Source: Methylomarinovum tepidoasis (lineage in GTDB: Bacteria > Pseudomonadota > Gammaproteobacteria > Methylococcales > Methylothermaceae). From it: a stretch of DNA of 64,000 nt. Positions 17,103-47,473 of this stretch are shown here, piece after piece; within the stretch, counting starts at the first letter, position 1; every line of letters starts with the position of its first letter. The stretch is taken from assembly GCF_030294985.1 (NCBI RefSeq), contig NZ_AP024718.1, forward strand, positions 310,001 through 374,000. The letters run 5' to 3'. The position numbers and the translations under genes are program-made. Under the pieces are notes generated by a model, which saw only the letters and a program-made list of their open reading frames with translations, ran no database searches and was not told where the DNA came from.

Positions 17103-17762
17103 CTAAACCTGCTTCCCCAGCGTCTGGCGCAGATATTCCAACACGTCGAACACGGTGGCGAAATACTGCCCCTGGGCGCTGGCATAGCCGCTGCGGCCCG
17201 GCACGGCGGCGATGGTCAGCGGCTCCGGGCCGTCGATGCGCACCGCGCCCTGACGATCCACCAGCACCTGCGCCGGCAGGCGATGGTTCAATTCCGCCAA
17301 CCGGCCCAGCCAGGCATCGACCGCCTCCCGCAGCAGCCATTGACGGCGCAGCAGCTCGCGTTCCCCGGCGTCACGGCAGCCTGCCAACACCATTTCCTCA
17401 GCCATCGAGCGGGCCGCCGCCTTCACTTCCGCCGGGTCTTGTTCGGCCTCGCGCAGCAGTTCTTCCACTTCCGGCGTAACGCTCAAAAACATCGCGCCAT
17501 AACGCCACAACCCGGCGGCCTGCTGACGCCGGTAACAGATCACTGCCCGGCCTTCCACCTCACAGCCACTGACCCGTAATCTGAAGCCTACCCTGGCGGT
17601 GGGCTTCAGATCGTCATGATGGGCGACGAACGCCATGCCGTTCGGGCTCAGATCCTCCAGGCGACACCACTGCTGAGCGGAAGCAGGTTTCCAGCCGCTG
17701 CGGTGGACTTCAACCTGCAAGCCCGGCAGAGGAAGCCGAGGATCGTGGCGTTGATCGCTCAT
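17103..17762 (-). CDS. PilZ-domain protein at the end of the pilus operon
   Basis: A 219-residue cytoplasmic protein. The N-terminal 110 residues form a PilZ domain with both c-di-GMP-binding motifs: RHDPR at residues 5-9 (RxxxR) and DLSPNG at 37-42 (DxSxxG). The remaining half is helical and unrecognised. The start ATG at 17762 overlaps the pilin stop (ATGA), so it is translationally coupled to the last pilin gene. This implies that pilus assembly or function responds to cyclic di-GMP. Confidence 0.88.
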   Translation of the reverse strand: MSDQRHDPRLPLPGLQVEVHRSGWKPASAQQWCRLEDLSPNGMAFVAHHDDLKPTARVGFRLRVSGCEVEGRAVICYRRQQAAGLWRYGAMFLSVTPEVEELLREAEQDPAEVKAAARSMAEEMVLAGCRDAGERELLRRQWLLREAVDAWLGRLAELNHRLPAQVLVDRQGAVRIDGPEPLTIAAVPGRSGYASAQGQYFATVFDVLEYLRQTLGKQV

Positions 17763-18364
17763 AACCTTACACAAGGCACATAGGTCTTTTCCAGGTGGTA
17801 AGCCGCGTCTTCGATGCTGACCCGAACATCACCAGAGTTGGCCTTGCCGTCGTCGAGCTTGTTATCCAGAATGGTTGCCACATCCCCGGGAACCCCCTGA
17901 AAGCAAAGCACAGGACCACGCATGTTCCAGACGCTATGCTGGATCCCCATCAACCCCCCAAAAGCATGAGTCGGCTGATCCGTGCCCGATCCCGCCAGCA
18001 ATCCGGCCGCCCGCAGATGCTTCCAGAACAGGCGGGATTCATCGCTTTCATTCGTACTGTTCCACTTCCCATTGATGTAACCATCACCTCCATTTTTTCC
18101 GGCATTGAATCTCTTGTCTATCCCCAAATGCTCCGAAGCCTTTTTGTCATCGCCCGGCAAGGCTTTGTAGCGGTCCTGGTAAGCCAGCACCGCCGCGGAG
18201 ACCTCCTTGACGGCGTTTTGCAGACTGGCGATCTTGGCGTTCTTGACGATCTCCTGGCCTTTCATGACGCCGCCGAGCAGCAATCCGACGACGACCAGCA
18301 CGATGGCGATTTCCACCAGCGTGAAGCCACCCTGCCCGCCTTTCGTTCCCAAGCTCGTTTTCAT
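17759..18364 (-). CDS. Type IV prepilin-like protein (major pilin candidate)
   Basis: A 201-residue prepilin. The class III signal ends at G13 and the mature protein starts FTLVEIAIVLVVVGLLLGG, with Glu at mature position 5. The block KGQEIVKNAKIASLQNAVKE and the DRYKALPGDD segment are typical of MSHA/type II-like pilins; two Cys residues (in VLCFQG and VPCVRL) could form the C-terminal disulfide loop. ATG 18364 is chosen because AGAGGTGAG precedes it; further upstream Met codons would place the signal too far in. It has its own ribosome site after a 40-base gap, consistent with higher expression than the upstream genes. Confidence 0.88.
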   Translation of the reverse strand: MKTSLGTKGGQGGFTLVEIAIVLVVVGLLLGGVMKGQEIVKNAKIASLQNAVKEVSAAVLAYQDRYKALPGDDKKASEHLGIDKRFNAGKNGGDGYINGKWNSTNESDESRLFWKHLRAAGLLAGSGTDQPTHAFGGLMGIQHSVWNMRGPVLCFQGVPGDVATILDNKLDDGKANSGDVRVSIEDAAYHLEKTYVPCVRL

Positions 18365-18404
18365 CGTACTCACCTCTTTGATTGTCAGAATGACGATTAA
18401 CGGA

Positions 18405-18974
18405 TCAGCCTCCCTGACCACTTTCTGCTCCATCTTTCGCACACAGCCCTGCCAGAACCGCCCGGTTCTTCAACACGGCGGGGTTCACCCAGGCGACGAC
18501 GTCGTCGAAGCGCTCCGGCCGGGGGAACGCCTTGACGAAATCGGCGTCCCCGTCGCGGTTTTCCCGCTCGGCTCCGCTGTCGTAGCGGAACCTGCCTTCC
18601 GAAACCACGACCGCCGTTACCTGCGCCGCCAAAGCGCCCTTTTCGTCTCTCACCCGAATGTCGTTTCCTGGATCGCAGGGATTGGTCTTGGGCGCGGTCC
18701 GGTAGCGCCAGGGACGCCCCCAGGGATCGGTCTCCGGGACGCCCAACGCCTGCCAGGGAAGCGTGTCTTTGCCGACAGGGCCGGGAAGCGTTTCATGGAT
18801 GAGGGCATAGCCGTACAGCGCTTCGGTGATGACGGCCAGCTGCCGTTTGGCTTCCCGTTCCTTCTGGAACCGGGACTGTTTGGCCAGGGGAACCAGCATC
18901 CCCCCCATCATCAGGCCGAACGCCGTCAGCACGATGGCCATCTCCACCAGGGAAAAACCCGTCTGCCTATTCAT
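18405..18974 (-). CDS. Prepilin-like pseudopilin (minor pilin candidate)
   Basis: A 189-residue prepilin with a very short leader: MNRQTG, then FSLVEMAIVLTAFGLMMGG, with Glu at mature position 5. The globular part contains DPWGRPWRYRTAP, a segment common in type II secretion pseudopilins. It overlaps the upstream gene by eight bases. It is probably a minor pilin that works with the 201-residue pilin downstream. Confidence 0.85.
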   Translation of the reverse strand: MNRQTGFSLVEMAIVLTAFGLMMGGMLVPLAKQSRFQKEREAKRQLAVITEALYGYALIHETLPGPVGKDTLPWQALGVPETDPWGRPWRYRTAPKTNPCDPGNDIRVRDEKGALAAQVTAVVVSEGRFRYDSGAERENRDGDADFVKAFPRPERFDDVVAWVNPAVLKNRAVLAGLCAKDGAESGQGG

Positions 18975-19347
18975 CCGTCAGATCCTTCACGACCAGGGCG
19001 CCGCCAGCCCGCAAACGGGCCGTCTGTCCGGGGCGCAGCCGGAGACGGCGGCCGCGCCACAACAGCGTCTCGGCGCCTGCTTCCAATCTGGGACGCAACG
19101 CCGGCTCTCCCTCCCGATAGAGCCGCCCATCGAACCAGAACAACGGCTGCCTGCCTTCCGCCCGTAGCCAGCCGTTGGCGCGCAATCCGACCGCTGCGGC
19201 AGCCTCCCCAGCCTCTGGTGAAACAGGAGAGGATTCCAACTGTTGGCGTTGAGCCGGGGTGAAGAACAGCCGTCCCAGCGCCTGCACCTCAGGGGCCGTC
19301 TGCAGGATCATCAGGCCCATCATCAGCGTCGTTCTTATCGGTTTCAT
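18967..19347 (-). CDS. Small periplasmic pilus assembly protein (MshK/PilP-position)
   Basis: A 126-residue protein with a signal-like hydrophobic N-terminus (MKPIRTTLMMGLMILQTAP) and a small beta-rich domain starting LGRLFFTPAQRQQLE. Proteins with this opening occur beside type IV pilus-like genes, and the position after the PilO-like gene fits MshK/PilP, which links inner-membrane proteins to the secretin. The start lies inside the preceding gene (overlap of 59 bases), which is unusually long; a later start is not obvious because the signal begins here. Confidence 0.65.
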   Translation of the reverse strand: MKPIRTTLMMGLMILQTAPEVQALGRLFFTPAQRQQLESSPVSPEAGEAAAAVGLRANGWLRAEGRQPLFWFDGRLYREGEPALRPRLEAGAETLLWRGRRLRLRPGQTARLRAGGALVVKDLTDE

Positions 19348-19906
19348 AACGGGAAAACCCATACCACTCCAACTGGCATCTACCCTCCAGATTGACCGCC
19401 AACGGGGCCGGCGGGTCGCTGCGGCGAACGATCCGGCAGGCACGCAGGTCGAAGATCCCGAGATTCGACGATTCCAACGCCTGCCAAAAAGCCAGCAAGA
19501 TACCTTCATGCACCAGCCCCAGTTGCAAATCGATATCGACGCGCCACAACCGAATGCCTTCTTGCTCTTCAATGGATGCCTGCGGTTTCAGGGTATATTT
19601 CAGTACCGGCACCTGCAGTTCCGGCACCAGCGCTTCGACCGTCGCGATCCAGTCCAGACGCCTGCCGCTCCCGCCGCTTCGGGGCCACAAGCGCTGAAAT
19701 CGCGCCCCGGAGGATTCAACGATGGCCAGAGCTTCGGTCCTTTCTTCCAGGGTATCTTCCAATGATTCCAGCACATGTTGCTGACGCCGCAGCTGGTCTT
19801 CGGCCCGCTGTAACCGCCCCCAGGCGCCATAACCCACCATTCCCGCGACCGTCAGTGCTGTCAGCGCCACGACCCAGGGAAACCAGCGTTTCCTACTCCC
19901 CTTCAT
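19289..19906 (-). CDS. PilO/MshJ-like inner-membrane protein
   Basis: A 205-residue bitopic protein: basic start MKGSRKRW, one membrane helix at about residues 9-28, a coiled coil (about 30-65) and a periplasmic ferredoxin-like domain. This is the plan of PilO, GspM and MshJ. The ATG at 19906 lies in the last codons of the upstream gene (14-base overlap), chosen over 19972 because it puts the positive residues just before the helix. It is expected to form a heterodimer with the upstream GspL-like protein. Confidence 0.75.
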   Translation of the reverse strand: MKGSRKRWFPWVVALTALTVAGMVGYGAWGRLQRAEDQLRRQQHVLESLEDTLEERTEALAIVESSGARFQRLWPRSGGSGRRLDWIATVEALVPELQVPVLKYTLKPQASIEEQEGIRLWRVDIDLQLGLVHEGILLAFWQALESSNLGIFDLRACRIVRRSDPPAPLAVNLEGRCQLEWYGFSRYETDKNDADDGPDDPADGP

Positions 19907-21326
19907 CGGCAGAAACCAGGGAAACTTGAATCTTGAAGGTCGCCATCCCTGCATTTCCTTCCTGCCCGGCACCGATTTCCCCGGACAGGGAAACCCCCTC
20001 CGTCAGGGGCGGATCGCTTTCCAGCAACCGGGCGGCGGTCAATCCGGGCTGGCTCGCCAGCGCCTGAAGCAGGTGGTTCAGGCCAAGGGCAAGACGGCGC
20101 GGATCTGCGGTGGAAGGATGGGTCAGGGTCAAGATCACGCGCATCTCCTCTTCCTCTTCTTCCTCCCCCTGCTTTTCCGGCTCCCAGACCAGATCGGTCA
20201 GCGTCCAGCGGGGAAAGCGGTCCAGCACCTGCGCCAAGGGTTCCAACACGCGCTCCGGCGTGATGCGCTCCTGCCGGAGGCGGTCGTAACGCGTCAGAAA
20301 ATCCTCTATCTGCCGGGGGGTGAAGCCATCCACCGAAGGAACGGGGGGCATGCGTTCCAGACTGCGCCGCAGCGCCCCCTGCTCGCGCGCCAAACGCGCG
20401 GCTTCCTGCGCCAGCGTCTGCGACCGCTCCCAGGCATATCCGGCATAGAGGCCCGATCCCAGCAGCGCCAACAGGGACACGCCATAGGCGCCGGCGGGGA
20501 AAAACGCCGCGCCTTGCCGACAGCGATAATAATGGGGTCGCCGCCAGATCTGTCTCCCCAGCAGGCAGGCGGCCGCACCGGGCAGGTCGTTTGCCGCCAG
20601 CGGATATTCTTCCACCTGCCAACCGGGGGCTTCGGTGGCTGCAGCGAGTTCCTCAAGCAGGGCCGGCGCGGCCGCAAACTGAATCTTCTTCTCCTCCGGA
20701 AGATGCAGCAGGCGGCTCAGATAGCGCCAGGTGCGATCGCTCTCCTCGACGACCTCCTCCACCAGCGCCTCCCGGCGGGAGACCAGGGTCAGGCGGCTGA
20801 AGGCAAGCCGTCCGCCCCGGATGAAATCGTGGCGCAAGGCCAGGGCTTCGGCATGGGCATAAACCAGCAGCCGCAACCCCTCGAAACGCTTCGGCAACAG
20901 CGCATCTTCCACCAGCTGCGGCAGCGACCAGAGCCCCAAGACCTGCACCCGCCAGTCCGCTAGGCATGCCAACCATCCTTCCAGCACCCGGGAGCCACGA
21001 ATGGCGGTGAACAACATCTGATCGTCGCGCCGCCCGGAAGACTCTCGCCCCAATTTCTCAGTCCGCACCCAAGCCACATCCTGGAACAGCTGACGCGCCC
21101 TGCGCCTGGCCAATGCCTGATGGTCCCTGCCGCCCACATGGGGTAAATGCTCCAGACGGAACTCCTCTTCGATCAGGTCCACCACCAGCCTCAGCTTTCG
21201 CACCGATTTCCAAGCAGGGGGACGCCGAGCCGGAGCTTCCCGGCCTTCCCATACGCACGCCCAACGACCCAGGCCGGTCCGATACAACCGCTGACAGTCG
21301 TTGCCGAGATACAGCACCCAGGCCAT
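19893..21326 (-). CDS. GspL/MshI-like assembly protein (PilM-PilN-type fusion layout)
   Basis: A 477-residue protein. Residues 1-270 are cytoplasmic (MAWVLYLGND... resembling the actin-like N-terminal domain of GspL/PilM), a membrane helix spans about 279-299, a coiled coil follows (about 300-325), then a small periplasmic domain. This is the GspL layout, equivalent to PilM fused to PilN, and the position between MshG- and PilO-like genes supports it. A run of seven Glu residues (388-394) interrupts the periplasmic domain. The start overlaps the previous stop (TGATG). Sequence similarity to named MshI is weak by eye, so the family name is tentative. Confidence 0.7.
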   Translation of the reverse strand: MAWVLYLGNDCQRLYRTGLGRWACVWEGREAPARRPPAWKSVRKLRLVVDLIEEEFRLEHLPHVGGRDHQALARRRARQLFQDVAWVRTEKLGRESSGRRDDQMLFTAIRGSRVLEGWLACLADWRVQVLGLWSLPQLVEDALLPKRFEGLRLLVYAHAEALALRHDFIRGGRLAFSRLTLVSRREALVEEVVEESDRTWRYLSRLLHLPEEKKIQFAAAPALLEELAAATEAPGWQVEEYPLAANDLPGAAACLLGRQIWRRPHYYRCRQGAAFFPAGAYGVSLLALLGSGLYAGYAWERSQTLAQEAARLAREQGALRRSLERMPPVPSVDGFTPRQIEDFLTRYDRLRQERITPERVLEPLAQVLDRFPRWTLTDLVWEPEKQGEEEEEEEMRVILTLTHPSTADPRRLALGLNHLLQALASQPGLTAARLLESDPPLTEGVSLSGEIGAGQEGNAGMATFKIQVSLVSADEGE

Positions 21327-22534
21327 CAGAACTCCAGTTGACTGATGAGATCGTAAATCGGCCCCATCACCGAGAGCATCACCCAGCCCATGAGAGCGCC
21401 GATAAGCAGGTTGAGCGTCGGTTCGATCAGGGCTTGCATACGCTCGATGGCTTCGTCCACATTGCGGTGATAGAAATAATCCACATTGGCCAGCGCCTTT
21501 CCCAGATCGCCGGTGCGCTCGCCGATCTTGATCAGGCGGATCACCAGACGGGGGAACAGACCGGTATCCTCCAGCGCCTGGCTGACCGCCTCGCCGCGGG
21601 CGATCGCCTCCCGGGCCTGGGCCAGTCCCCTGGCCACGCAGGCGTTGCCCACCACGCCGACACACAATTCGAAGCATTCCAGCACCGGCACCCCCGCCTG
21701 GAACAGCAGGGCCAGGTAATGCGCGAAGCGGGCCATGACCAACTTTTCCAGCACCGGTCCGAGCAGCGGCAGGCGCAGTTTGAGGGCATCGAACCGGAGA
21801 CGGGCCGAAGCGCTCCTGGCCAGGATGAAACGCGCCAACACCAGGCACGCTACCGGCACGCCGAGCAACCAGGGCCAGTAGGCCGCCATGGCGTGGGAGA
21901 CGGCGATCAAAAGCCGGGTATGCCAGGGGATCTCTCCTTCCATCGACAGGATGAAGCCGGTCACCTGGGGAACCACATACACCATCATGAAAGTCACCGC
22001 TCCCAGAACGATGAGGCTGGAGAACGCAGGATAGGCGAGCGCCTTCTTGGTGCGGGCGATCATCTCGTCCTGCCATTTGAGGGATTCGGTCAAATGGGCG
22101 AGCACCGATCCCAGCTCACCGCTATGTTCCCCGGCACGGATCAGGTCGACGAACAGCGCCGAGAACACCTGAGGATAAGCGGCCAGCGCATCGGAGAAGG
22201 CGCTGCCCGCCTCGATTCTCTCCGCCACCCCGCTGACCACGTCACGCAGCTTCCCCGGCGGCAGGGTCTCGGCGTAGTCCCGCAGGGCCTCGAGCACGCC
22301 GATACCGGCATTGACCATCTGTTCCAACTGGAAGCAAAAGTGGATCAACTCGCGTCGCCCCACCCGCGCCCTGAAACCCGGAGAACCGCGCCGCTCGCGC
22401 ACGACCCGGGCGCGGATCAGGGTCAGCCGCCGGGCGCTCAGGCGCGCTTCGAGCATGTCCTCGTTATCGGCCTCCGCCAGACCATGGCAACGGCTGCCTT
22501 GGGAATCGACGGCGGTATAGCGGTAACGGGGCAT
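21326..22534 (-). CDS. mshG: Pilus inner-membrane platform protein (GspF/PilC/MshG family)
   Basis: A 402-residue polytopic platform protein on which the ATPase acts. It has two tandem T2SSF domains (about residues 65-190 and 265-390) with family blocks FCFQLEQMVNAGIGVLEAL and RFAHYLALLFQAGVPVLE, and three hydrophobic segments near 170-190, 212-235 and the C-terminus. It starts one base after the mshE stop. The length and order after the ATPase match MSHA and type II systems. Confidence 0.92.
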   Translation of the reverse strand: MPRYRYTAVDSQGSRCHGLAEADNEDMLEARLSARRLTLIRARVVRERRGSPGFRARVGRRELIHFCFQLEQMVNAGIGVLEALRDYAETLPPGKLRDVVSGVAERIEAGSAFSDALAAYPQVFSALFVDLIRAGEHSGELGSVLAHLTESLKWQDEMIARTKKALAYPAFSSLIVLGAVTFMMVYVVPQVTGFILSMEGEIPWHTRLLIAVSHAMAAYWPWLLGVPVACLVLARFILARSASARLRFDALKLRLPLLGPVLEKLVMARFAHYLALLFQAGVPVLECFELCVGVVGNACVARGLAQAREAIARGEAVSQALEDTGLFPRLVIRLIKIGERTGDLGKALANVDYFYHRNVDEAIERMQALIEPTLNLLIGALMGWVMLSVMGPIYDLISQLEF

Positions 22535-22535
22535 C

Positions 22536-24233
22536 TCATCCTGCCGGAGTCAGATTGGTCACCCGGCGCACCTCCGCCAGGGAGGTCACCCCTGCGGCCA
22601 CCTGGCGCAGGCCGTCTTCGGCCAGCGAACGGTAGCCCTTACGCCGGGCGGCCTGTTCGATTTCCGGCATCGACGCCCCTTTGGCCACCAAGGCATCGAG
22701 TTCGGCATCGAAGGGAATCGCCTCCATGATCAGAGTACGCCCCCGGTATCCGTGAAATCGACAGTCGGCGCAGCGTCCGGCCTCATAGATGACCCTGGCC
22801 TCATCCGGCTCCCAGCCCCAGCGGGCCTGATCCTCCAGGGAAGGGAGCACCGGCCGGCGGCACTTGGCACAAAGCCGCCGCACCAGACGCTGCGCGACGA
22901 CGCCGATGAGGTTGCCTGCGATCAGCTCGGTGGAAACCCCGATGTCCCGCAGGCGGACCAGCGCCCCCACGGCCGAGTTGGTATGCAGCGTGGAAAACAC
23001 CTGGTGTCCGGTCATGGCGGCCCGAAGCGCCATGGTAGCGGTCTCCTGATCGCGGATCTCGCCCACCAGGATCACGTCCGGGTCCTGGCGCAACAATGAA
23101 CGAATCCCGCCGGCGAAATCCAACTTGGCCGCTGAATTCAGGGAAGTCTGCCGCGCCCCGGGCAGCGGATATTCCACCGGATCCTCCAGAGTCATGATGT
23201 TGACCCCTTCATTGTTGATGTAAGCGAGCAGGGAATAGAGCGTCGTGGTCTTGCCGCTGCCGGTAGGCCCGGTGAGCAGCAGCAGCCCCTCGGGGCGACC
23301 GGCCATGGCTTTCAGGAGCGCCAGGGTATCGGCGGCCACGTCTAGCCGGTCCAGGGGCACGATCCCTTTGCGCTTGTCGAGAATGCGCAGCACCAGGTTT
23401 TCGCCATGAAGGGTGGGATGGGTGGCGGCGCGGAAATCGATCTCACGGCCGGCGACGATGAGCTGGATGTGGCCGTCCTGGGGGCTGCGGGTTTCGGCGA
23501 TATTCATCTGCGCCATCACCTTGAGCCGCACCAGCATGCCCGACCAATAGCGCTTGTGCAGCACCCGCACCTGATGCAGCACCCCGTCGATGCGGTAACG
23601 GATACGGAGGAAGCCTTCCTCCGGCTCGAAGTGGATATCGGAGGCGCCCTGGCGCACCGCATCCGCCAGCAGAGCGTCCACCAGGCGCACCAGCGGGTGA
23701 CTGTAGCGCTCGCCGTCCAGCCCCAGCTCGGTCTCCTGGTCACCGGTTTCCAACTCACGGAGAATGCCGCCAAGGGACAATTCGTAGCCGTAAAAGCGGT
23801 CGATCGCCTCTTCCAGTTCGGCTTCTCCGGCCAGCACCGGTTCGATTTCCACCCGTCCTCCCAGAAGCACGCTAAGACGGTCGAGGGTGACGATGTCGAA
23901 TACGTCCACCATTGCCACCTTGAGCGTGCCCGCCTCGGCGTCATAGGCCATCGGCACCACCCGCAGACGACGAGCGGTTTCCTGGTCTATCAGCTTGAGG
24001 GCTTCGGCGTCCGGCACCCAGGTCTTCAAATCGACGCTTTCCTGCCCCAGAGAGCGTCCCAAGTGGTCGCGGATGACCTCTTCCGTGACGAAACCGAGCC
24101 GGACGAGGATCTTGCCCAAGGGCTCTCGCCCAGGGCTGTTCTTCTGTTCCAGCAGGGCGATCTCCAGCTGATCGGGCGTGAGGATGCCTTCCTCGATCAG
24201 CAATTCCCCCAAGCGCTTCTTCTGTTGGGTCAC
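22536..24233 (-). CDS. mshE: Pilus assembly ATPase (GspE/PilB/MshE family)
   Basis: A 565-residue hexameric ATPase that powers pilus extension. An N-terminal MshEN-type region spans about residues 1-165; MshEN domains can bind cyclic di-GMP. The catalytic part shows Walker A GPTGSGKT (322-329), the Asp box TLEDPVEY (348-355), Walker B DPDVILVGEIRD (384-395), the His box GHQVFSTLHTN (409-419) and a tetracysteine zinc site (C455, C458, C488, C491). It starts with GTG, overlapping the TPR gene stop (GTGA). No retraction ATPase (PilT type) is present in the window. Confidence 0.95.
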   Translation of the reverse strand: MTQQKKRLGELLIEEGILTPDQLEIALLEQKNSPGREPLGKILVRLGFVTEEVIRDHLGRSLGQESVDLKTWVPDAEALKLIDQETARRLRVVPMAYDAEAGTLKVAMVDVFDIVTLDRLSVLLGGRVEIEPVLAGEAELEEAIDRFYGYELSLGGILRELETGDQETELGLDGERYSHPLVRLVDALLADAVRQGASDIHFEPEEGFLRIRYRIDGVLHQVRVLHKRYWSGMLVRLKVMAQMNIAETRSPQDGHIQLIVAGREIDFRAATHPTLHGENLVLRILDKRKGIVPLDRLDVAADTLALLKAMAGRPEGLLLLTGPTGSGKTTTLYSLLAYINNEGVNIMTLEDPVEYPLPGARQTSLNSAAKLDFAGGIRSLLRQDPDVILVGEIRDQETATMALRAAMTGHQVFSTLHTNSAVGALVRLRDIGVSTELIAGNLIGVVAQRLVRRLCAKCRRPVLPSLEDQARWGWEPDEARVIYEAGRCADCRFHGYRGRTLIMEAIPFDAELDALVAKGASMPEIEQAARRKGYRSLAEDGLRQVAAGVTSLAEVRRVTNLTPAG

Positions 24234-24949
24234 CGGGCTGCCTCCTCCAATTGGCGCAAGCGCCGGACCGCTACCTCCGGGTCGAAGGCGGCCTTGCGCC
24301 GCCGGGCCGACTGCAAGGCTTCGGTGTAGAAACGGCGCGCCAGGCGATACTGTCCCAAGTGATCCAGGCTCACCGCCAGATCGTAGCTGTAATCCGGATG
24401 GGTCAGATCGATGCGATGGGCATGGAAGTAGGCTTGCTGGGCCCTTGGCCAGTCGTTGCGGCGAGCATACAAGTCGCCGAGCACGGCGTACAACCAGGCG
24501 GTGTCGTTCCGCTCCGAAGCCGACTGTTCCAGTGCCGCCAGCAGAGGCTCATCTTGCGGATGCAATACCGCCAGGCCCGCCAGTGCCAGCAGTTCGCCCG
24601 GTCGCAACACGAGCGCCTGGCGATAACCCCGATCGGCCACGTCCCAGCGCCCCAGTTTCAGGGCGGCCGCAGCCAGCCCCAACCAGGCATCGACGGCATC
24701 CTGCCGCCACCTGAGGGCTTGGGAAAATGCCCGGTACGCCGTCTTCCAATCCCCCCGCCCATAAGCCGCCCGTCCCTGCCCGACCCAGCAAGCCGCCGTT
24801 TCCGCCCGGGGCGAACGCACGATCTTCAAGGTACCAGCACGGATCTCCTCCTCGGCTGCGCTTTCTTCAAGCGGCGGCGGGCAGTCAGCCTGAGCGGGCG
24901 ATGCCCCCCAAACCACCAACAACAGCAGCAGTACCTTCACCCTGTTCAT
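24230..24949 (-). CDS. Exported TPR protein (MshN position)
   Basis: A 239-residue protein with a signal peptide (MNRVKVLLLLLVVWGASPAQA) and several tetratricopeptide-like repeats from about residue 50 to 215, for example GDWKTAYRAFSQALRWRQD and LYARRNDWPRAQQAYFHAH. In MSHA operons a TPR protein (MshN) lies between the secretin and the ATPase, as here, though MshN is a membrane-anchored protein and this one appears secreted. It overlaps both neighbours (ATGA and GTGA). Confidence 0.8.
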   Translation of the reverse strand: MNRVKVLLLLLVVWGASPAQADCPPPLEESAAEEEIRAGTLKIVRSPRAETAACWVGQGRAAYGRGDWKTAYRAFSQALRWRQDAVDAWLGLAAAALKLGRWDVADRGYRQALVLRPGELLALAGLAVLHPQDEPLLAALEQSASERNDTAWLYAVLGDLYARRNDWPRAQQAYFHAHRIDLTHPDYSYDLAVSLDHLGQYRLARRFYTEALQSARRRKAAFDPEVAVRRLRQLEEAAR

Positions 24950-26514
24950 GGCGCCGAAGTCGCCTTCAGAAATCCGCGGTAATCCTTGAGATCCCCCTTG
25001 AGGCTGGCGCTGCGGATCACTGTGGGGCGAATGAAGATCACCAGCTCGGACTTGCGGCTTTGATCGTTCTTGTAACTGAACAACGACCCCACATAGGGAA
25101 TGTTCGAGAGTCCGATGACGCCCTGGGTCGTGCGGTCGACATCGTCCTGCATCAACCCGCCGATGATACCGATGTGACCGTTATGGAGACGCAGCATCGA
25201 CTCCATTTCCTGCACCTCGATCCGTGGCACCTGGCTTTCGGTGCCTGCCTGGGCCAGCATGGGGTTCGGATCTTTGACGAAACCCGTAATACGGGAAATG
25301 GTGGGACGCACGTGCAACAACACGTTGTCCTGGTCGTCGATGGCCGGGGTGACGCTCATCACGAAACCCACCGGCACCGTATGAGGCGTGGTTTCGGTGG
25401 TGGTGACGCTGACCCCCTGGGTCTGATTGGTGTCCACCTCGACGGTGAAATAAACCTGGTTCTCCACCACCCGCAACACCGCCGTCTGATTGTTGACCAC
25501 CATCAGCTTGGGACTGGAAATGACCCGGGTGTCCCCGAATTCACTCAGCAGTTTGACCGTGGCGGCCAGATCCTTGCCGGCATAGGCGACAGTCAACGCC
25601 GGCGGGCCGGAAAGGGCCTGCCCGAGCATGTTCTGGACGATGTCGATCTTGCGCTTGTCGCTGCCCAGTTTGACGTTGACCGCCTCCCAATCGACCCCGG
25701 CCTGATAACGGTCGTTGAGACTCACGTCCACCACGGTGGCCTCGATCAACACCTGGCGCTGCGCCCGGCGCAAAACCTGATTCAGATAACGGCGGATCTT
25801 GCGGTGCTGGCGGGCGGTGGCCTTGATACTGAGCAGGCCGCTTTCGGGATGGGCGATGATCGGCGCCTGTCCCGGTGCTTTTCCACCGCCCTGCTGCGGC
25901 AGCGCGACCCCGAGGATGGCGGCGATGTTGGCCACCAGCCGATCCCAGAAATGATTCTTGGACTGACTGGCCACCTTGGTGGCGGATTCGTTGTCGCTTT
26001 CGCCGTCCTGTCCCTCGTCCTCGCTTCCGATCTTGTTGGAAACGCTGACCTGGTTGACGCTATCGCGGACGATGTTCACGTAAGGAACGGGATAGTGCTC
26101 GAAATAGGGAGTATCCGGCTCTACCTTGAGATAATTTCCTTGCAGCCGGTAACGCAGACCCAACTGATCAGCGATGCGGGCGAGGATCTGCTCCAGAGTC
26201 TGGTCAATGGCATTGAGGGTCACCTGACCTTCCACACCGGGCACCAAGTCCAGATTCAATCGGGCGTCACGCGCCAGGGCAAACAAGAACCGGCGTACCG
26301 GCACGTCGGTCACCACCGCGGAAAATCGCCTCGATGGAGGACGTCCCGTCGCTTCCGGCAGCGGCGGCAATGGCGTTACCGGCACCGGCGCCTCACCCGC
26401 CGCCACCGCAGGCGACTGCAGATGGCGGGCCGGTTGCGGCCCCAGCGCCTGCTGCCCGGCACAACCGGCCAAAAAACCTGTAAACAGGAACCCGATCACA
26501 ATTTTGCCTTTCAT
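24946..26514 (-). CDS. mshL: Outer-membrane secretin lipoprotein (MshL family)
   Basis: A 522-residue secretin, the outer-membrane channel of the pilus system. The lipobox FLAGC gives a lipidated C18. Residues about 70-155 hold an STN-like N0 domain, about 190-250 an N1-type domain interrupted by an acidic DEGQDGESDNE stretch, and about 260-510 the secretin core with VPVGFVMSVTPAIDDQDN and SELVIFIRPTVI. The ATG at 26514 is chosen over a GTG two codons upstream; neither has a clear ribosome site. It is the first gene of the ten-gene operon and is divergent from the DUF2959 gene. Confidence 0.92.
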   Translation of the reverse strand: MKGKIVIGFLFTGFLAGCAGQQALGPQPARHLQSPAVAAGEAPVPVTPLPPLPEATGRPPSRRFSAVVTDVPVRRFLFALARDARLNLDLVPGVEGQVTLNAIDQTLEQILARIADQLGLRYRLQGNYLKVEPDTPYFEHYPVPYVNIVRDSVNQVSVSNKIGSEDEGQDGESDNESATKVASQSKNHFWDRLVANIAAILGVALPQQGGGKAPGQAPIIAHPESGLLSIKATARQHRKIRRYLNQVLRRAQRQVLIEATVVDVSLNDRYQAGVDWEAVNVKLGSDKRKIDIVQNMLGQALSGPPALTVAYAGKDLAATVKLLSEFGDTRVISSPKLMVVNNQTAVLRVVENQVYFTVEVDTNQTQGVSVTTTETTPHTVPVGFVMSVTPAIDDQDNVLLHVRPTISRITGFVKDPNPMLAQAGTESQVPRIEVQEMESMLRLHNGHIGIIGGLMQDDVDRTTQGVIGLSNIPYVGSLFSYKNDQSRKSELVIFIRPTVIRSASLKGDLKDYRGFLKATSAP

Positions 26515-26555
26515 ATCCACAAACGTAGTCCAGTCCCGCAGGTTTGCAAGACGCC

Positions 26556-26621: not shown

Positions 26622-27251
26622 ATGCCTTATCTGTTCCTGCTTTTCCTGCTGACGTCCTGCTCCACCGCCTATTACGGGGCCATGGAGCAGATCGGCTTCC
26701 ACAAGCGCGACATCCTGGTCCACCGGATCGAAAAGGCCCGGGAGGAGCAGGCGGAGACCAAGGAACAGTTCAAGACCGCACTGGAGAAATTCGCCGCCCT
26801 GACCGACTTCCACGGCGGCGACCTGCAAGACAAATACGAGGAACTGAACGCCGCCTACGAGGCCAGCGCGGAGAAGGCCGAGGCGGTCAGGCGGCGCATC
26901 GCCGACATCGAGGACGTGGCCGAAGCCCTGTTCGAGGAGTGGGAGGAAGAACTCGGGCAGTACCACAACGCCGCCATGCGGGCCCAAAGCGCCCGTCAGC
27001 TGGCGGAAACCAAACACCGCTACCGGCGCCTGATCACGGCGATGAAACGGGCCGCCGCCAAAATGGACCCGGTCCTGGCGATGTTCCACGACCGGGTGCT
27101 GTTCCTCAAACACAATCTCAACGCCCGCGCCATCGCCTCCCTGCAGGGAGAGCTGGACCAGATTCAGGACAACGTCGCCAGTCTCATCCGGGAGATGGAA
27201 CGCGCCATCGCCGAGGCCGACACCTTCATCCGCGCCATGCAGCAAAGCTGA
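26622..27251 (+). CDS. DUF2959 family lipoprotein
   Basis: A 209-residue lipoprotein: the signal MPYLFLLFLLTSC ends in a lipobox with C13, followed by the family block STAYYGAMEQIGFHKRDILV. The rest is a long, almost uninterrupted helix with heptad character (coiled coil). DUF2959 proteins are found across Gammaproteobacteria and their function is unknown; periplasmic localisation is inferred from the lipobox. It is followed by a small hairpin and the von Willebrand operon. Confidence 0.88.
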   Translation: MPYLFLLFLLTSCSTAYYGAMEQIGFHKRDILVHRIEKAREEQAETKEQFKTALEKFAALTDFHGGDLQDKYEELNAAYEASAEKAEAVRRRIADIEDVAEALFEEWEEELGQYHNAAMRAQSARQLAETKHRYRRLITAMKRAAAKMDPVLAMFHDRVLFLKHNLNARAIASLQGELDQIQDNVASLIREMERAIAEADTFIRAMQQS

Positions 27252-27252
27252 A

Positions 27253-27273
27253 CGGCGGTGTTTCCGCCGCTTT
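27253..27273 (+). terminator. Small hairpin after the DUF2959 gene
   Basis: CGGCGG-TGTTT-CCGCCG followed by CTTTC, just after the stop codon. The stem is six base pairs and the U-tract is short, so termination would be weak and some read-through into the von Willebrand operon is likely. Confidence 0.4.
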
Positions 27274-27321
27274 CACCGTTCTAGTCTATGCTTCAGTAAA
27301 AAACCGAAGGATGGACCATTC

Positions 27322-29025
27322 GTGCGTTCGCTTGCCGTACTGCTGCTTCTGCTCTGGTCGGCCGCCGTCTCTGCAGCCGACGAGGTGCGCGTTCTCATCG
27401 ACGTCTCCGGCAGCATGAAACAGACCGACCCGCAGAACCTGCGGGTCCCGGCCCTCAAGCTGCTGCTGGAGCTGCTGCCGCCGGGGACCCGCGCCGGGGT
27501 ATGGCTGTTCGCCGACCACCCCGAACCGCTGCTGCCGCCGGCCCTGGTCGATGACGCCTGGAAACGGCAGGCGACCGCCGCCAGCGCCAGGATCCATTCC
27601 CGCGGCCGTCACACCGATATCGAGGCCGCCCTGCGAGCCGCCACCGCCGGCTGGGACAAAGCCCCCGAAGACGGCCACCGCCATCTGATCCTGCTCACCG
27701 ACGGCATGGTGGACGTGGAAGGCGATGCGGCCGCCGACCAGGCCTCCCGTGAGCGCCTGCTGGGCCGGTTGCTGCCCGGACTGCAAAACCGGCAGGTTCA
27801 CCTCTACACCATCGCCCTGTCCGACCAGGCCGACCATGCGCTGCTCAAACAGCTGGCGGTGGCCACCGACGGCTGGAACGAAACCACCCGCTCGGCCGAA
27901 CAGTTGCAGCGTGTCTTTCTCAAGATTTTCAGGAAGGCGCTCCCCCGCGATGCCGTACCGCTGGAGGGAAACCGGTTCAAGGTGGACACCAGCGTGCGGG
28001 AATACACCTTGCTGGTGTTCCATCAGCCGGACAGCCCGGAAACCGAACTGGTCAAGCCCAGCGGCGAGCGCTGGACCGCCGCCCGACATCCCGACAACGT
28101 TCGCTGGCACCGGGAAAGCGGCTACGATCTCGTCACCGTCACCAACCCCATGCCCGGGGAATGGCAGCTGGTGGCCAAGGCCGATCCCGACAACCAGGTC
28201 ATGATCGTCACCGATCTCAAGCTCAAAGTGCCCCCCCTGCCCAACTACGTGCTCGCCGGGGATTCCCTCTCCCTTGTCGCCGAGCTGACCGAGCACGGCA
28301 AACGCATCACAGCGGCCAATTTCCTGCGCCTGGTCGATTTCCAGTTCCGACGGGACGCCGCGGCAGAACCCGTCCCCCTGTTCCCGGGCGAGGAGACGGG
28401 CACCTACACCCAGACGGTGACGGATCTGGAATCGGGCACCTACACCCTACAGGTCACCGCCAGCAGCAGGACTTTCGAACGCCGCTGGGAACAGAGCGTG
28501 GAGGTCATCGCCAATCCGGTGCGCCTGGAAACCACCCTGCCCCACCGCCCCGGCGAAGACGCCGTGCTGCGCCTGATTCCCGATCCCACGGTGATCGATC
28601 TGCACAGCTTTCACGCCACCGCCGTGTTGGGGAACGGCGACAGCCGGCCATTCCAAGCCATCGGCGAAGGCCAGTGGGAAAGCAGGATTCCCGTGGGAGA
28701 AACCCCGGTCACCGTCAACCTGCAGGTGGAAGCCACAGACAGCCAGGGACACTCCCTGCCGGTCGCCTTCCCTCCCCTGAGCCTCGAAGTGCAGCCGGAG
28801 GAAACCCCCGCCGAAGAGGAAGCCACGGCGGAGGAGGAAATGGACGAGGAAGCCCTGGAAGAAGAACTGCTGGAGGAGGAGACGGAAAGCGGGCGCTGGT
28901 GGGCTGCGGCCGCCATCGCCGGCGGCGCCAATCTGACCCTCGCCCTCGTCGGCTTTCTGCTCTGGCGCTGGCTGCAACGCCGGACCAGGAAACGACATGA
29001 AGCGCTGCTGCAACGACTGGCCTGA
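27322..29025 (+). CDS. Membrane-anchored von Willebrand factor A protein (TIGR03503-like)
   Basis: A 567-residue protein resembling the TIGR03503 family of unknown role. It has a signal peptide (1-18) and a VWA domain (about 20-200) with an intact metal-ion site: D27, S29, S31 in DVSGS and a later TDG loop in LLTDGMVD. Beta-sandwich-like regions follow (about 215-490), then a strongly acidic segment rich in EEE, one membrane helix (about 525-548) and a basic tail. It starts with GTG at 27322, with GAAGGA ten bases upstream. The two following genes overlap or nearly touch it, forming one operon. Confidence 0.8.
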   Translation: MRSLAVLLLLLWSAAVSAADEVRVLIDVSGSMKQTDPQNLRVPALKLLLELLPPGTRAGVWLFADHPEPLLPPALVDDAWKRQATAASARIHSRGRHTDIEAALRAATAGWDKAPEDGHRHLILLTDGMVDVEGDAAADQASRERLLGRLLPGLQNRQVHLYTIALSDQADHALLKQLAVATDGWNETTRSAEQLQRVFLKIFRKALPRDAVPLEGNRFKVDTSVREYTLLVFHQPDSPETELVKPSGERWTAARHPDNVRWHRESGYDLVTVTNPMPGEWQLVAKADPDNQVMIVTDLKLKVPPLPNYVLAGDSLSLVAELTEHGKRITAANFLRLVDFQFRRDAAAEPVPLFPGEETGTYTQTVTDLESGTYTLQVTASSRTFERRWEQSVEVIANPVRLETTLPHRPGEDAVLRLIPDPTVIDLHSFHATAVLGNGDSRPFQAIGEGQWESRIPVGETPVTVNLQVEATDSQGHSLPVAFPPLSLEVQPEETPAEEEATAEEEMDEEALEEELLEEETESGRWWAAAAIAGGANLTLALVGFLLWRWLQRRTRKRHEALLQRLA

Positions 29026-42079: not shown

Positions 42080-43969
42080 TCAATGCCAGATCCTGTCCTC
42101 GACTTCCAATTGATGGACATGGGCCATGAAAGCATGCAATGCCTTGAGGTCGGCAGCGTAACTGCCGGTGAAAAAACGGGGCAGCCCTCCATGGATACCC
42201 TGCTCGTCGATGATAAACGTCTCATCGCCAAACGAAGCCACGCCGTTCTCACCTTTTTCTAAACCGAAAGGAGGATCGAACAGGGAATGTCCCATGAAAG
42301 GATTTTCCGGTATGGTGATGCCCAAATAATGGAGAAGGGTCGGGGTAAAGTTGACGCTGGTCGCATAACGGGCGTCGAAACGGGAAGGCAATTCCCGGCC
42401 TGGATCGTAGATGATTAGCGGAATCTGATCCACGAACGTCTTGACATAGGGATGTTTGAACCGGCTATCTTTGCGGTCAAACGCGGCAACGAAGGGACGG
42501 TCATGGAAATGGGCATGGTCGGCGGTGAAGATTACGATAGTGTCGTCAAAATACTGTGATTGTCTGAAATATTGCCAAAACGTTCCAAATGCATCATCGA
42601 GGTTATGAATGGTGTTCAGTGACGCATTTTTCCCGTCTCCATAGACGACCCCATCCTCGGGCACGTCCAGGAAGGCATGGGTTCCCAAATTGTAAATGCC
42701 GATGAAAAAGGGCCTGGTGGTTTTGTCATTCTCCACGGATGCCAGCAGCGCAACAAGCGCGCGAAACAACTGATGATCCGAAATCGCATTGGGGCGGATC
42801 GGTTTTTCCCCGGGCAAATAGCGACCGAGGAATTCATCGGCCATGAACACATGGTCAAAGCCCAAGGTGTAGAGCATCTCGTCCAGGAAAGTCGTTTTCT
42901 TCAACTGTGAAGTTGCAAAGGCGGTAACATAACCGGCCGTCCTTAGAATCTCCGGAAGGCACAGATAGTGGCTGCGGGGAAGGTTCTCGTAATTGTCGTG
43001 CCAGCCACCGACCCCACCGTATTTGGGATAGAGAGAGCACAACTGACCATGCAGTCCCCGGTACGTGGCCGCAGTGTGGTTGTAATAATTGTCCACGACC
43101 ATTGCGTTTTGGGAAAAATCGACCAAATTGGGAGTCAAACCGGGATAGTCCTGGCTGTACACGTTGGTATTGCGGGCGGAGTAGCCTTCCGTGAAAAAAA
43201 CGATGATGTTGGGCGGCCTGATACCCGTTCCCACAGATGGAAAGGGCGGAGGCGGATGGCTTCCCTTTCTGATCAGCGGATATTCACGACCGTCGTCGTA
43301 GTGAAAGCCATACCGTGCCGCAACGGCCAGAATGTCTGTATCGATCTTTTCACCCTGATGCGGGCTGGCCATTGTCTGCCAGATGGTACTGATCAGTGCG
43401 GTAAGTGGCGGTGTTTCGGTAAGGCGGTTCTCCCGAAGCAGACGCTGTGCTGCTGTAGAAGGGGACCTCTTGGCCTCCAAGACGGGCAGCAAGGGCACGG
43501 TAATGAGGACGGCAACAGAGAACAGGGGAACCATCGCCAGCGGGCGCGGGCGGCGGCCGTATTTCTCCAGCAAGTAGAGGACGGCTGTCAAACACAGCCC
43601 CACGACACCCACCAACAAAAACAAATTTGCATTTCTTTGCAGTAACAGGTCGATATGGTTGATGTTTTCCAGTGCCAACGGTGGCAAGAAACTGCCGGAT
43701 TTATAATAGGAAACGATCTGCACCAGATAGCCGGCGAATACCAGGGCCACCAAAGCGTATCCCAACAACCGCAGCAGGAGCCGCGCTGCCAATAGATTTC
43801 TCAGGATCAGAATGAGTGCCAAATACTCGGCCACATAAGGATAAAAAGCGCCTAAGGCCGCTTTCCCCTTCTCATACCAACCAGAAAATTCAGCAGGCCA
43901 TGTCAGCTGGGATAAAAACACAGCCATCCAAATGCCGAAGATAATGGCTGCGAAAAACGATGATTTCAT
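42080..43969 (-). CDS. LtaS-like membrane sulfatase/phosphoglycerol transferase
   Basis: A 629-residue protein with five hydrophobic segments in the first 170 residues and a periplasmic alkaline-phosphatase-fold sulfatase domain from about 255 on: NIIVFFTEGYSARNTNVYS (metal site), a Thr-rich catalytic segment HTAATYRGLHGQ, and IVIFTADHAHFHD with further metal ligands. This resembles lipoteichoic acid synthase/OpgB-type enzymes that transfer phosphoglycerol or phosphoethanolamine to glycans. In this locus it may decorate the exported polysaccharide. The start overlaps the stop of the giant glycosyltransferase (ATGA). Confidence 0.87.
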   Translation of the reverse strand: MKSSFFAAIIFGIWMAVFLSQLTWPAEFSGWYEKGKAALGAFYPYVAEYLALILILRNLLAARLLLRLLGYALVALVFAGYLVQIVSYYKSGSFLPPLALENINHIDLLLQRNANLFLLVGVVGLCLTAVLYLLEKYGRRPRPLAMVPLFSVAVLITVPLLPVLEAKRSPSTAAQRLLRENRLTETPPLTALISTIWQTMASPHQGEKIDTDILAVAARYGFHYDDGREYPLIRKGSHPPPPFPSVGTGIRPPNIIVFFTEGYSARNTNVYSQDYPGLTPNLVDFSQNAMVVDNYYNHTAATYRGLHGQLCSLYPKYGGVGGWHDNYENLPRSHYLCLPEILRTAGYVTAFATSQLKKTTFLDEMLYTLGFDHVFMADEFLGRYLPGEKPIRPNAISDHQLFRALVALLASVENDKTTRPFFIGIYNLGTHAFLDVPEDGVVYGDGKNASLNTIHNLDDAFGTFWQYFRQSQYFDDTIVIFTADHAHFHDRPFVAAFDRKDSRFKHPYVKTFVDQIPLIIYDPGRELPSRFDARYATSVNFTPTLLHYLGITIPENPFMGHSLFDPPFGLEKGENGVASFGDETFIIDEQGIHGGLPRFFTGSYAADLKALHAFMAHVHQLEVEDRIWH

Positions 43970-46900
43970 GATCCGATCGCTCCGCCTTCGCTAGAAACAC
44001 GCCAGGGTCTGGTCACCCGCGGCTGGAAGCTCAGGGAAAAATCACACCGCTCCAGCGTGAGATTGGGATTGTAGGCCGGATCGGCGCGTAACAGAGAACC
44101 CCAGCGCCGCTGCATGATCTCGATTTCCCGTTGGAAACGGCGTTGTTTTTCCGGCGTGTCCTCATAGCCGCGGGTGGCCGACTCGTGATGAAACAGCCGC
44201 GCCAATGGCGTCCAGACATTGCGGTAACCGCGATTGTGGATCTTCAGACACAGATCCACGTCGTTGAACGCGACTTTGAGTCCCTTTTCGTCGAAACCAC
44301 CCACTTCCAGGAATACATCCCGCCGCACCAGCAGACAGGCGGCCGTCACCGCCGTCAGATGTTGGGCCAGACGCAATCGCCCCATCTGCCCCGGCGTCTC
44401 CGGAGGCCACCCGACCCACGGATGACCGGCCACGCCTCCGATTCCCAGGATAATGCCAGCGTGCTGGATGCGCCCGTCCGGATAATAGAGCATCGCCCCT
44501 ACCGCGCCGGTTTCAGGATGGAGGGCATGAGCAACCATTTCCTGCAGCCATTCACGCTCGAGTATCTCCAGATCGTTGTTGAGAAAGCCAAGGATTTCTC
44601 CCTGCGCATGGCGAACGGCAAAATTGTTGATGGCGGAAAAGTTGAAAGGTTCATCATACCGCAATACCTGAAAGCCCTGGCGCCGGGACAACTCATCAAG
44701 ATAGGCCAGGGATTGCGGGTCCTGCGAACGGTTGTCGACCACGATCACTTCATAATCGGGATACTCGGTTTTCTCCACCAGCGTTTCCACACAGCGGGAC
44801 AGCAACTCATAACCGTCGCGGGTGGGAATGATCAGGCTGACTTTTGGGGGGTGCGTCGGCACACGGAAACGAACCCGGCAATGGCCGCCAGGCAAGGATT
44901 CCACCTCAGCGGGCAAAGAAAGGCGTTGCAAATGCTCCTGCACCGCCCGCACCGCCGCCCGGGCAGGATAGGACTTCTCGTCCGGCGCTTTGGCGGTGGA
45001 ACCGGAAACAGCCCGCCAGTGATAGAGAATGAAGGGGACATGGCGAATTTGCTCAGGCGACAGCGTTTCCGTGACCCGCAATGCCAGATCCCAATCCTGA
45101 CTGCCTTCGAATCCCTCCCGAAAGCCGCCACAGGCACGGACCGCATCAGCCCGATAAACACTTAGATGATTGAAATAATTTTGGCCCAGCAACAGCAAGG
45201 GATTCCAATCCGGTTTGAAATATGGATCGAAGTGGCGGCCCAGCTCATCAAGCTTATCCTCGTCGCTGTAGAGCAGCACTGCATGGGGATGAGCCGTGAT
45301 CTCCTCGGCCATCAGATAAAGGGCATGCTCCGCTAGCTCGTCATCGTGATCCAGCAGCGCGATGTAGTCGCCTGTCGCCATCGCCAGCGCATCGTTCGAG
45401 GCTACGGAAATATGTCCATTGCAGTCCCGATAGCGGACCCGGATGCGCGGGTCCCGACGCCGATATTCCTCCAACACCCGCCTGACCTTGGGGGAGTGGG
45501 AGGCATCATCCACAATGCACAACTCCCAATGAGGATAGAGCTGATTCAGTACCGAATCGAGTGCGGCCCGCAACCAATGCACATCCGGATCATGCACCGG
45601 CATCAGGATGGAAAATGTTGGTATATTCCGCATCGAAATGATGCGCTTGCGGATTGCCTCACGGTCCGCCTCGGTCAGCCGACCGTACAGGCGGAACCAG
45701 GATTGGTACGCATCCCAATGTCGTCTTTGAACGGACTCGACCAACTGCCGCCTGGCCTCCAGCTTGCCGGGGCCGCACCAGGCACGGATCAGACGCACCG
45801 TCTCCCGGGCCCATGTGTCCGGTTGTCTCAACCACGAGTCCATCTCAGGCCTGAACAGCCTGGTTGCAGCAAGCAGACTGCCGATCTCGGTCACTTCCAG
45901 CCGCTTGATACGGAACTCCCCCGGCGCATGGCGGGGGTCGAATCGCCAGCCCTGCACCGCATCCGGCAAACGCACCACCCGCTCGAACCGGTTCCCGGAT
46001 CCTGTCGGCAGCAGCGTGAAACACTGACACTCGTTGAAACCGTCACCAGTATCGTAATAGATCGTCGGCGGGGAGTCGCTATTGCCTGCCATCGTCAGGC
46101 TGACCCGCACCCAGCGGGAGGGAATCGGGCCGGGAAATCCAAGGTGAAAATGAGGGTCCGGCCCCTGGGCACGGAATCGTCCGCCGCCAAGGTCTTCGAC
46201 CTGGTGCACCGGCATCAGGTGAGGTATGCAAGAACGGTGACGGACGAGCTGGTGCAGCCGCCTCAGCCTACGTCCAAGCATCCGCACCGGGGCGGATATC
46301 CGCCAGCTGGTGGATTGCATGACCTCCCGGTACGCCGTCTGCCAGTGCGCAATCTCCCGGCGCGACGCCGCCAACATCGCCTCCATGTCCTCGATCCGGC
46401 GCTGACGCGCTTCCAGCTCCTTCTCGCGCTCTGCCAGCAATCGTTTCAGATTGTCGGCATGGGTCTGGGTCATGGCCTGGATACGGTCCTTTTCCGCCAG
46501 CAGCTTCTCCAGATTCTCCCCGTGAATCCGGGCCTGGGCCAGCGACCGATCCCGCTCCGCCAGCAGCTTCTCCAGATTCTCCCCGTGGACCCGGGCCTGG
46601 GCCAGCGACCGCTCCCGCTCCGCCAATAGCTTCTCCAGATTCTCTCCGTGAATCCGGGCCTGGGCCAGCGACCGTTCCCGCTCCGCCAACAGCTTCTCCA
46701 GGTTGCGGATATGGGCTTCGGTCGCCTCGAATCCCCGGTGGGCATGGACCAGCAGCGCCACCCGGCTTTCCGCCGACCAACGGCGATCCCATTTGGCGTA
46801 CAAAAGCCGCAGCGCGGTGTAACGCTTGTCATCCTTGCCGTGAACGCCGGAACCGTCGTCGGCCGTCAAGCGGTAGAAAGCCGTCACCCGATCCAAATGG

Positions 46901-47469: not shown

Positions 47470-47473
47470 GAGG

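Follow-up and report, generated by a model that had tools for sequence, protein, structure and literature searches.

The genome of Methylomarinovum tepidoasis IN45, a methane-consuming thermophile, contains a ten-gene operon that we read as a reduced member of a class of type IV filament machines related to, yet lying outside, the mannose-sensitive haemagglutinin (MSHA) pilus. The operon occupies positions 17103 to 26514, minus strand, of a 64,000-nucleotide stretch of that genome (the window). We call the window's clade class 2 and the classical MSHA-type loci class 1, and we put the probability that the operon is a reduced class 2 machine working by the mechanism proposed below at roughly 0.6. 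The assembly has two contigs with 2,442,387 bases in total, of which the larger, C1, has 2,421,873. All ten open reading frames (ORFs) are open and intact, and with the chosen starts neighbouring genes overlap or are separated by 1 base pair (bp), the exception being pp1 and pp2, which are 40 bp apart. The ORFs and family scans confirm the initial annotation, which had described ten genes, nearly all of them overlapping. In the order of transcription they are:

24946..26514, minus: mshL, MshL-type secretin with a lipoprotein-like signal, 522 amino acids (alternative GTG start at 26520; TIGR02519 and Secretin PF00263)
24230..24949, minus: mshN, MshN-type tetratricopeptide repeat (TPR) protein, 239 amino acids (TPR models; conserved L-N-E position)
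22536..24233, minus: mshE, MshE-type assembly ATPase with an MshEN cyclic di-GMP (c-di-GMP) domain, 565 amino acids, GTG start (T2SSE, MshEN, NF053729 and trees)
21326..22534, minus: mshG, MshG/GspF/PilC-type inner-membrane platform protein, 402 amino acids (T2SSF and tree)
19893..21326, minus: mshI, 477 amino acids, predicted PilM/GspL actin-like domain and GspL-type periplasmic domain (predicted structure)
19289..19906, minus: mshJ, PilO-like protein, 205 amino acids (position; profile against the same genome's PilO, 75.4% probability, E = 2.4e-5)
18967..19347, minus: mshK-like small periplasmic protein, 126 amino acids, start uncertain (homologue at the same position in related loci)
18405..18974, minus: pp1, putative GspG-related prepilin, 189 amino acids (N_methyl; model; hhalign to GspG)
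17759..18364, minus: pp2, second prepilin and candidate major subunit, 201 amino acids, longer start possible (N_methyl)
17103..17762, minus: pilZ, PilZ-domain protein with a C-terminal extension, 219 amino acids (PF07238)

The separation from MSHA is seen in the trees. In a careful MshE tree of 70 rows, class 2 forms one clade of 31 rows with support 100/100, and in a quick MshE tree class 1 together with three Massilia/Duganella rows forms another. The class 2 clade appears again in the quick trees of MshG (31 rows; Shimodaira–Hasegawa-like approximate likelihood ratio test, 100) and MshL (30 rows, support 99, with long-branch warnings on the outgroups), and in a joined MshE and MshG tree of 53 rows it comprises 22 rows at 100/100, the PilB/GspE rows standing at 97/95. 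The window's ATPase groups apart from the PilB/GspE rows and its platform protein apart from the PilC/GspF rows. Constraining both to class 1 carries a cost of 228.7 log units and is rejected by the approximately unbiased (AU) test (p-AU = 3e-49). These trees are without a named Vibrio row, and class 1 is identified as MSHA by gene order, by its closer match to V. cholerae MshE (5htl) and by the DxxYRRT motif; against 5htl, L179 of class 1 scores 107.9 bits, compared with 63.2 for the window and 56.9 for L203. Four MshE motifs are listed for MSHA operons in the available part of PMC4624772 (RLGDLLV, ARRxRAL, SDPADL and DxxYRRT). DxxYRRT is present in 14 of 19 class 1 sequences and in none of the 31 of class 2; strict ARRxRAL and SDPADL occur in only 2 and 1 of the 19 class 1 sequences, respectively, and the window's MshE carries a relaxed ARRxR. 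Judged by these trees, class 2 is a separate, well supported clade for MshE, MshG and MshL outside classical MSHA, and the idea of a distinct machine, raised in the initial annotation, is borne out; the outcome that was to refute it, trees with the genes inside classical MSHA, did not occur for these three.

A classical MSHA pilus that has lost MshM and its minor pilins is the least probable of the readings we weighed. The window's MshL does pass the NCBIfam MshL equivalog TIGR02519 (262.3 bits, cut-off 250.2), so that loci of this kind are probably labelled "MSHA", the L-N-E-G set is homologous to that of MSHA, and MshI is GspL-like, as in V. cholerae. These likenesses are outweighed by the AU result, by the lack of DxxYRRT throughout class 2, by a gene order in which I, J and K follow G instead of preceding L, and by the 17 of 274 gammaproteobacterial genomes with secretins in both the class 2 and the MSHA score ranges.

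Class 2 is widespread. The best 80 loci in a scan of our collection with an MshL alignment come from Gammaproteobacteria, Betaproteobacteria and Desulfobulbaceae; counted with incomplete loci included, they hold mshL (80), mshN (66), mshE (66), mshG (62), mshI (56), mshJ (53), mshK (49), pp1 (47), pp2 (13) and pilZ (2). The MshL cut-off was passed by 106 of the 274 Gammaproteobacteria genomes, and 40 of these loci, drawn from the highest-ranking ones and from genomes that contain two, were compared by scores and gene order. Twenty-six have the classical form, twelve the window's form and two a third form. The last (L182, L209) have an ATPase-like ORF of 516-532 amino acids and several pp1-like prepilins, and sit on long branches, unplaced in the trees. 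In the classical form an ORF of about 300 amino acids with a Walker A pattern directly follows mshL in 20 of the 26 loci, and a clear row of proteins of about 315, 205 and 230 amino acids precedes mshL in 14 of the 19 viewed, the other five being unclear. The first two proteins of that row match PilM (96.7%) and PilN (92.2%) over the 14 loci, which indicates separate PilM-like and PilN-like genes, and one classical locus passes Pfam PilM_2 and PilN.

The window's genome is among the 55 of 274 in which a class 2 MshL profile scores at least 437 bits. A further ten places, spread over nine genomes, fall at 271-386 bits and the classical places at 209-257, a nearly bimodal picture. Since this profile was made from the window's relatives, the scores alone are partly circular and the trees are the test. 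MshL-like secretins at 271-386 bits, seen in genomes G269, G156, G111, G249, G254, G107, G113 and G118, are possibly further types. Classical MSHA and class 2 operons can lie close together: the distance between the two secretins is about 13 kb in G140 (L191) and 23 kb in G214 (L189, L190). In Massilia/Duganella loci L134, L141, L127, L128 and L145 a second MshE/MshG pair on the opposite strand adjoins the class 2 operon; these second loci have up to four pp2-type prepilins, and the three pairs included in the trees group with classical MSHA. Eight loci show mshL alone over the 3.9-10 kb examined downstream (L079, L083, L094, L096, L103, L121, L122 and L139); seven of them, all except L094, are titled Thiotrichaceae, Thiotrichales, Thiomargarita or Thioploca, and their mshL is class 2-like.

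Class 2 loci are usually arranged as M-L-N-E-G-I-J-K-X-pilin, in which M is an MshM/ExeA-like gene and X encodes a large pilin-like protein. Methylothermaceae loci are without M and X; a PilZ gene is present in them, as it is in Cycloclasticus. A BLAST comparison finds the ten genes in order in four of seven Methylothermaceae loci, the other three ending at contig edges; in the Cycloclasticus family the run from mshL to pilZ is present in four of six loci (two are cut), and the three inspected have mshK and an extra gene between mshJ and pp1. An MshM profile built from ten sequences was scored on the 91 class 2 loci in which 1200 bp or more precede mshL. In 65 of them mshL is directly preceded by an MshM/ExeA-like gene (4/4 from Cycloclasticus, 0/5 from Methylothermaceae); among the remaining 26, three (L132, L190, L217) have a match outside our distance rule and two (L093, L096) one on the other strand. 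We considered and rejected a definition of class 2 by the absence of MshM, and the 65 loci make that absence a loss in the Methylothermaceae lineage. The interval between mshK and pp1 spans 759-3032 bp in 41 of 49 class 2 loci and leaves no gene-sized room in the window, in all six Methylothermaceae counted or in two Oxalobacteraceae. By pattern, X, recognised as a protein whose pilin-like N-terminus has no Glu at the usual place, is encoded after mshJ in 19 of the 34 loci inspected. Among outside relatives the nearest is a Methylomonas metagenome-assembled genome; X is present there and an upstream MshM-like gene is not. At L077 20175-21317, in a Methylomonas metagenome-assembled genome, transposase-like frames were seen by eye after the X gene. 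Both M and X are missing in Methylothermaceae compared with their class 2 kin, which makes the machine in the window a reduced one. The absence of MshM and the small number of pilins noted in the initial annotation are, in our analysis, lineage losses within class 2 and not a founding trait.

The same losses invite the reading that the operon is a decaying, non-working remnant, and the conserved LPCP cysteine, together with its loop, is missing from the window's pp1 as well. We regard this as highly unlikely, if marginally less so than a classical MSHA pilus: the ten frames are open and tightly packed, the MshE Walker A motif GPTGSGKT is intact, and M. caldicuralii has the same ten genes with MshE 95.8% and MshG 93.5% identical (MshL, in genome G003, 88%).

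MshI, the 477-amino acid protein, was modelled with AlphaFold from a 39-row alignment (predicted local distance difference test (pLDDT) 83.1, predicted template modelling score 0.59). Foldseek with this model finds PilM (1.4e-11) and the GspL cytoplasmic domain (2e-6). In VIA-align, residues 1-260 superpose on PilM 2ych with Z 16.9 (root-mean-square deviation (rmsd) 3.9, 252 aligned), residues 1-272 on EpsL 1yf5 with Z 15.2 (rmsd 3.3, 226/238 aligned) and residues 355-470 on the XcpY periplasmic domain with Z 10.1 (rmsd 2.6, 80/80 residues). FtsA scores about the same as PilM (Z 16.6), so by fold alone the first domain is only actin-like; the two domains taken together are the GspL plan, which makes the predicted MshI a complete GspL architecture. 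The actin-like fold for which structure prediction had been proposed is thus predicted, accompanied by a GspL-like periplasmic domain. The initial annotation had also read the single GspL-like protein, combined with an MSHA-type secretin and ATPase, as a hybrid layout. This is not supported: such a protein is usual in class 2, and the part of PMC4624765 available lists the MshI of V. cholerae among GspL homologues, so the fusion alone is no sign of a hybrid. Of the type II-like hybrid proposed there, the GspL architecture and a GspG-related prepilin remain, in a reduced member of a widespread family and not a private hybrid.

The GspG relation concerns pp1, the prepilin conserved across class 2 (34 sequences aligned). 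Once its N-terminal helix is taken out, the pp1 profile matches the same genome's GspG in hhalign at 93.5% (E = 2.3e-7) and the ten other prepilins, pp2 included, at no more than 1% (GspI, 0.3%). The GspG model is matched at E <= 0.001 by 32 of the 34 family members, the window's pp1 reaching 27.1 bits, below the cut-off of 88.85; the GspH model is also matched by 28 of 34, probably through the N-terminal helix. The closest structures to the pp1 model (pLDDT 90.2) are those of PulG and EpsG (Z 7.4, 88 aligned); a Z below 8 is weak by itself. Foldseek with pp1 returned nothing at E <= 0.001, and in a profile search of solved structures the listed matches all end at or before position 81 of 224, covering mainly the N-terminal helix. 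Both pp1 and pp2 are above the N_methyl cut-off. From these profile comparisons we take pp1 to be a GspG-related prepilin. A search with pp2 gave nothing significant. Of the 22 class 2 loci that extend 900 bp or more past pp1, 15 have pp2 and 7 do not; all 12 Methylothermaceae and Cycloclasticus loci examined downstream have it.

Such a subunit could belong to a type II-like pseudopilus machine, in which a GspG-like pp1 pushes or exposes proteins through MshL and no long pilus is made. We consider this unlikely, but it is the strongest competitor of the reading we prefer. The two predicted GspL domains of MshI, the match of the globular part of pp1 to GspG and to none of the ten other prepilins, and the seven loci without pp2 speak for it; the MshL-type secretin, the constant presence of pp2 in Methylothermaceae and Cycloclasticus, and a separate type II secretion system (T2SS) in the same genome with its own GspD, GspE and GspG speak against it.

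Two proteins of the operon may respond to c-di-GMP, and in both cases the features read initially were found. MshE, an ATPase with T2SSE and MshEN domains, passes the NCBIfam c-di-GMP motif NF053729 (60.9 bits, cut-off 38), and its first 24-residue MshEN motif fits the pattern given in the accessible part of PMC5013675 in full. The Arg of this first motif is kept in 8/8 Methylothermaceae (window included), 6/6 Cycloclasticus and 32/65 other class 2 ATPases. The PilZ protein scores 31.1 bits against PF07238 (cut-off 22.5) and carries intact R5-x3-R9 (RHDPR, for RxxxR) and DLSPNG (DxSxxG) motifs. In the class 2 set used for downstream genes, the PilZ gene is present in 12/12 Methylothermaceae and Cycloclasticus loci and was not found in the other 37 checked, many of which end soon after pp1. 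PilZ as a general component of class 2 was rejected, as among the loci looked at it was found only in those two groups. In MSHA, c-di-GMP binding to MshE drives extension and PilT retracts the pilus, as described in the available parts of PMC7096442, PMC4624765 and PMC5013675.

The product of the operon is, on the sequence evidence, most likely a c-di-GMP-gated filament processed by the common PilD. In the mechanism we propose, MshE and MshG would assemble pp1 and pp2 after cleavage by the cell's only PilD, with MshI, MshJ and MshK connecting the platform to the MshL channel through which the filament would pass. The GspG-like pp1 would be the conserved subunit and pp2 the likely major pilin in this lineage. 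Binding of c-di-GMP to the MshEN domain would favour assembly, and the PilZ protein would supply a second c-di-GMP input; with two such inputs, we propose, the filament would appear on the switch to surface life. Its retraction may be the work of the type IVa system's PilT and PilU, and adhesion or attachment seems its most likely role.

Several results weigh against this picture. In the careful MshE tree class 1 and class 2 lie on one side of a branch with 86/90 support, unstarred; they may therefore be sisters, and both could be called MSHA. The pp1 model fits MshA with Z 2.8 only, against 7.4 for PulG and EpsG, and a subunit closer to a pseudopilin than to MshA makes a short periplasmic filament possible. 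In the second MshEN motif of the window's MshE, the Arg and Gln of the PMC5013675 pattern, as far as that source gives it, are replaced by P38 and S61. A match to the 477-amino acid MshI is found in seven of nine same-genus genomes and in neither G001 nor G006. A sigma-70 scan gave no clear promoter, with 2 sites found and 1.5 expected.

The operon itself contains no MshM, PilT or further prepilin gene, as the initial annotation had stated; pilT and pilU are present elsewhere, at C1:69123 and C1:70167 (named by length and paired position, not by a PilT model). The missing PilT is therefore no oddity, the more so since MSHA loci are normally without pilT in the available parts of PMC7096442 and PMC4624765, which have V. 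cholerae MSHA use a PilT encoded outside the msh operon genes. The genome has one prepilin peptidase, PilD (C1:265150), and 12 prepilin-like N-termini. It also has a type IVa set apart from the operon, with PilB, PilQ and others, and PilB, PilQ (L067), GspE and GspD all reach curated cut-offs outside the operon. A profile search found no MshM in the window, and none was found genome-wide, where the only ExeA-like/AAA_22 match passes the XrtA-associated ATPase model; the class 2 MshM-like query gives this ATPase 139.5 bits, compared with 279-284 for the proteins beside mshL in three Cycloclasticus-type genomes. In the same-genus genomes G002, G005 and G007 that query matches at 160-172 bits on a contig other than the operon's.

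MshI, MshJ and MshK have no Pfam family match, and MshK has none in an NCBIfam-type scan either. A terminator scan was at chance level, and no plasmid relative of MshE was found at E 1e-100. GC content is even over the region (0.60-0.67), and with no shift to be seen a horizontal island was rejected. The frames lying tail to tail with the operon resemble, by eye, pstC, pstA and pstB. Divergent from mshL, at 26622-29025, are a DUF2959 gene and a von Willebrand A protein. Further off, at 42080-47493, a sulfatase-family protein adjoins a 1175-amino acid protein with three glycosyltransferase family 2 stretches, which suggests surface polysaccharide genes.

If class 2 is a separate machine, about one-fifth of the sampled gammaproteobacterial genomes (55/274, counted by a class-2-like secretin) carry a device for filament building or secretion that is apparently unstudied. 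With pilus and type II parts mixed in it, this device is relevant to how pili and secretion pseudopili interconvert, and its reduced form hints at the parts that can be dispensed with. More tentatively, at somewhat less than even odds, class 2 may be an undescribed type IV filament branch beside type IVa, MSHA and T2SS, combining an MSHA-type channel with a GspL-type protein and a GspG-type subunit and often occurring alongside MSHA; in Methylothermaceae it would have been cut to a minimal two-pilin form, losing both the MshM-like ATPase and the large pilin-like subunit, with PilZ control added there and in Cycloclasticus. Among open PMC papers we found none on the class 2 family. In the MSH model of Denise et al., mshM is mandatory, yet the quorum of three mandatory genes tolerates its absence; 884 systems were left generic in that survey, and class 2 may sit unnamed among these or among those counted as MSH (PMC6668835, from the part available).

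Among known systems, the MSHA pilus has in common with the window's operon the MshL-type secretin, the MshN-type TPR protein, MshE with its c-di-GMP N-domain, MshG, and a peptidase and pilT that both lie outside the locus. The window differs in its own clade for MshE, MshG and MshL, the order L-N-E-G-I-J-K, the lack of MshM and of a further minor-pilin gene set, the putative GspG-related prepilin and the terminal PilZ gene; deletion of mshM or mshN in V. cholerae leaves surface pili similar to those of the wild type, according to the accessible parts of PMC7096442, PMC4624765 and PMC5013675. With the T2SS it shares the predicted GspL architecture of MshI, a pp1 that appears related to GspG, and homologous ATPase and platform proteins, but its secretin is of the MshL type and fails the GspD model (138.5 bits, cut-off 351.35), and no operon gene passes the GspH, I, J or K models. 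With the type IVa pilus it shares an ATPase, a platform and a PilO-like protein, and PilD, PilT and PilU may be common to both; it differs in having one GspL-like protein in place of PilM and PilN, and MshL in place of PilQ.

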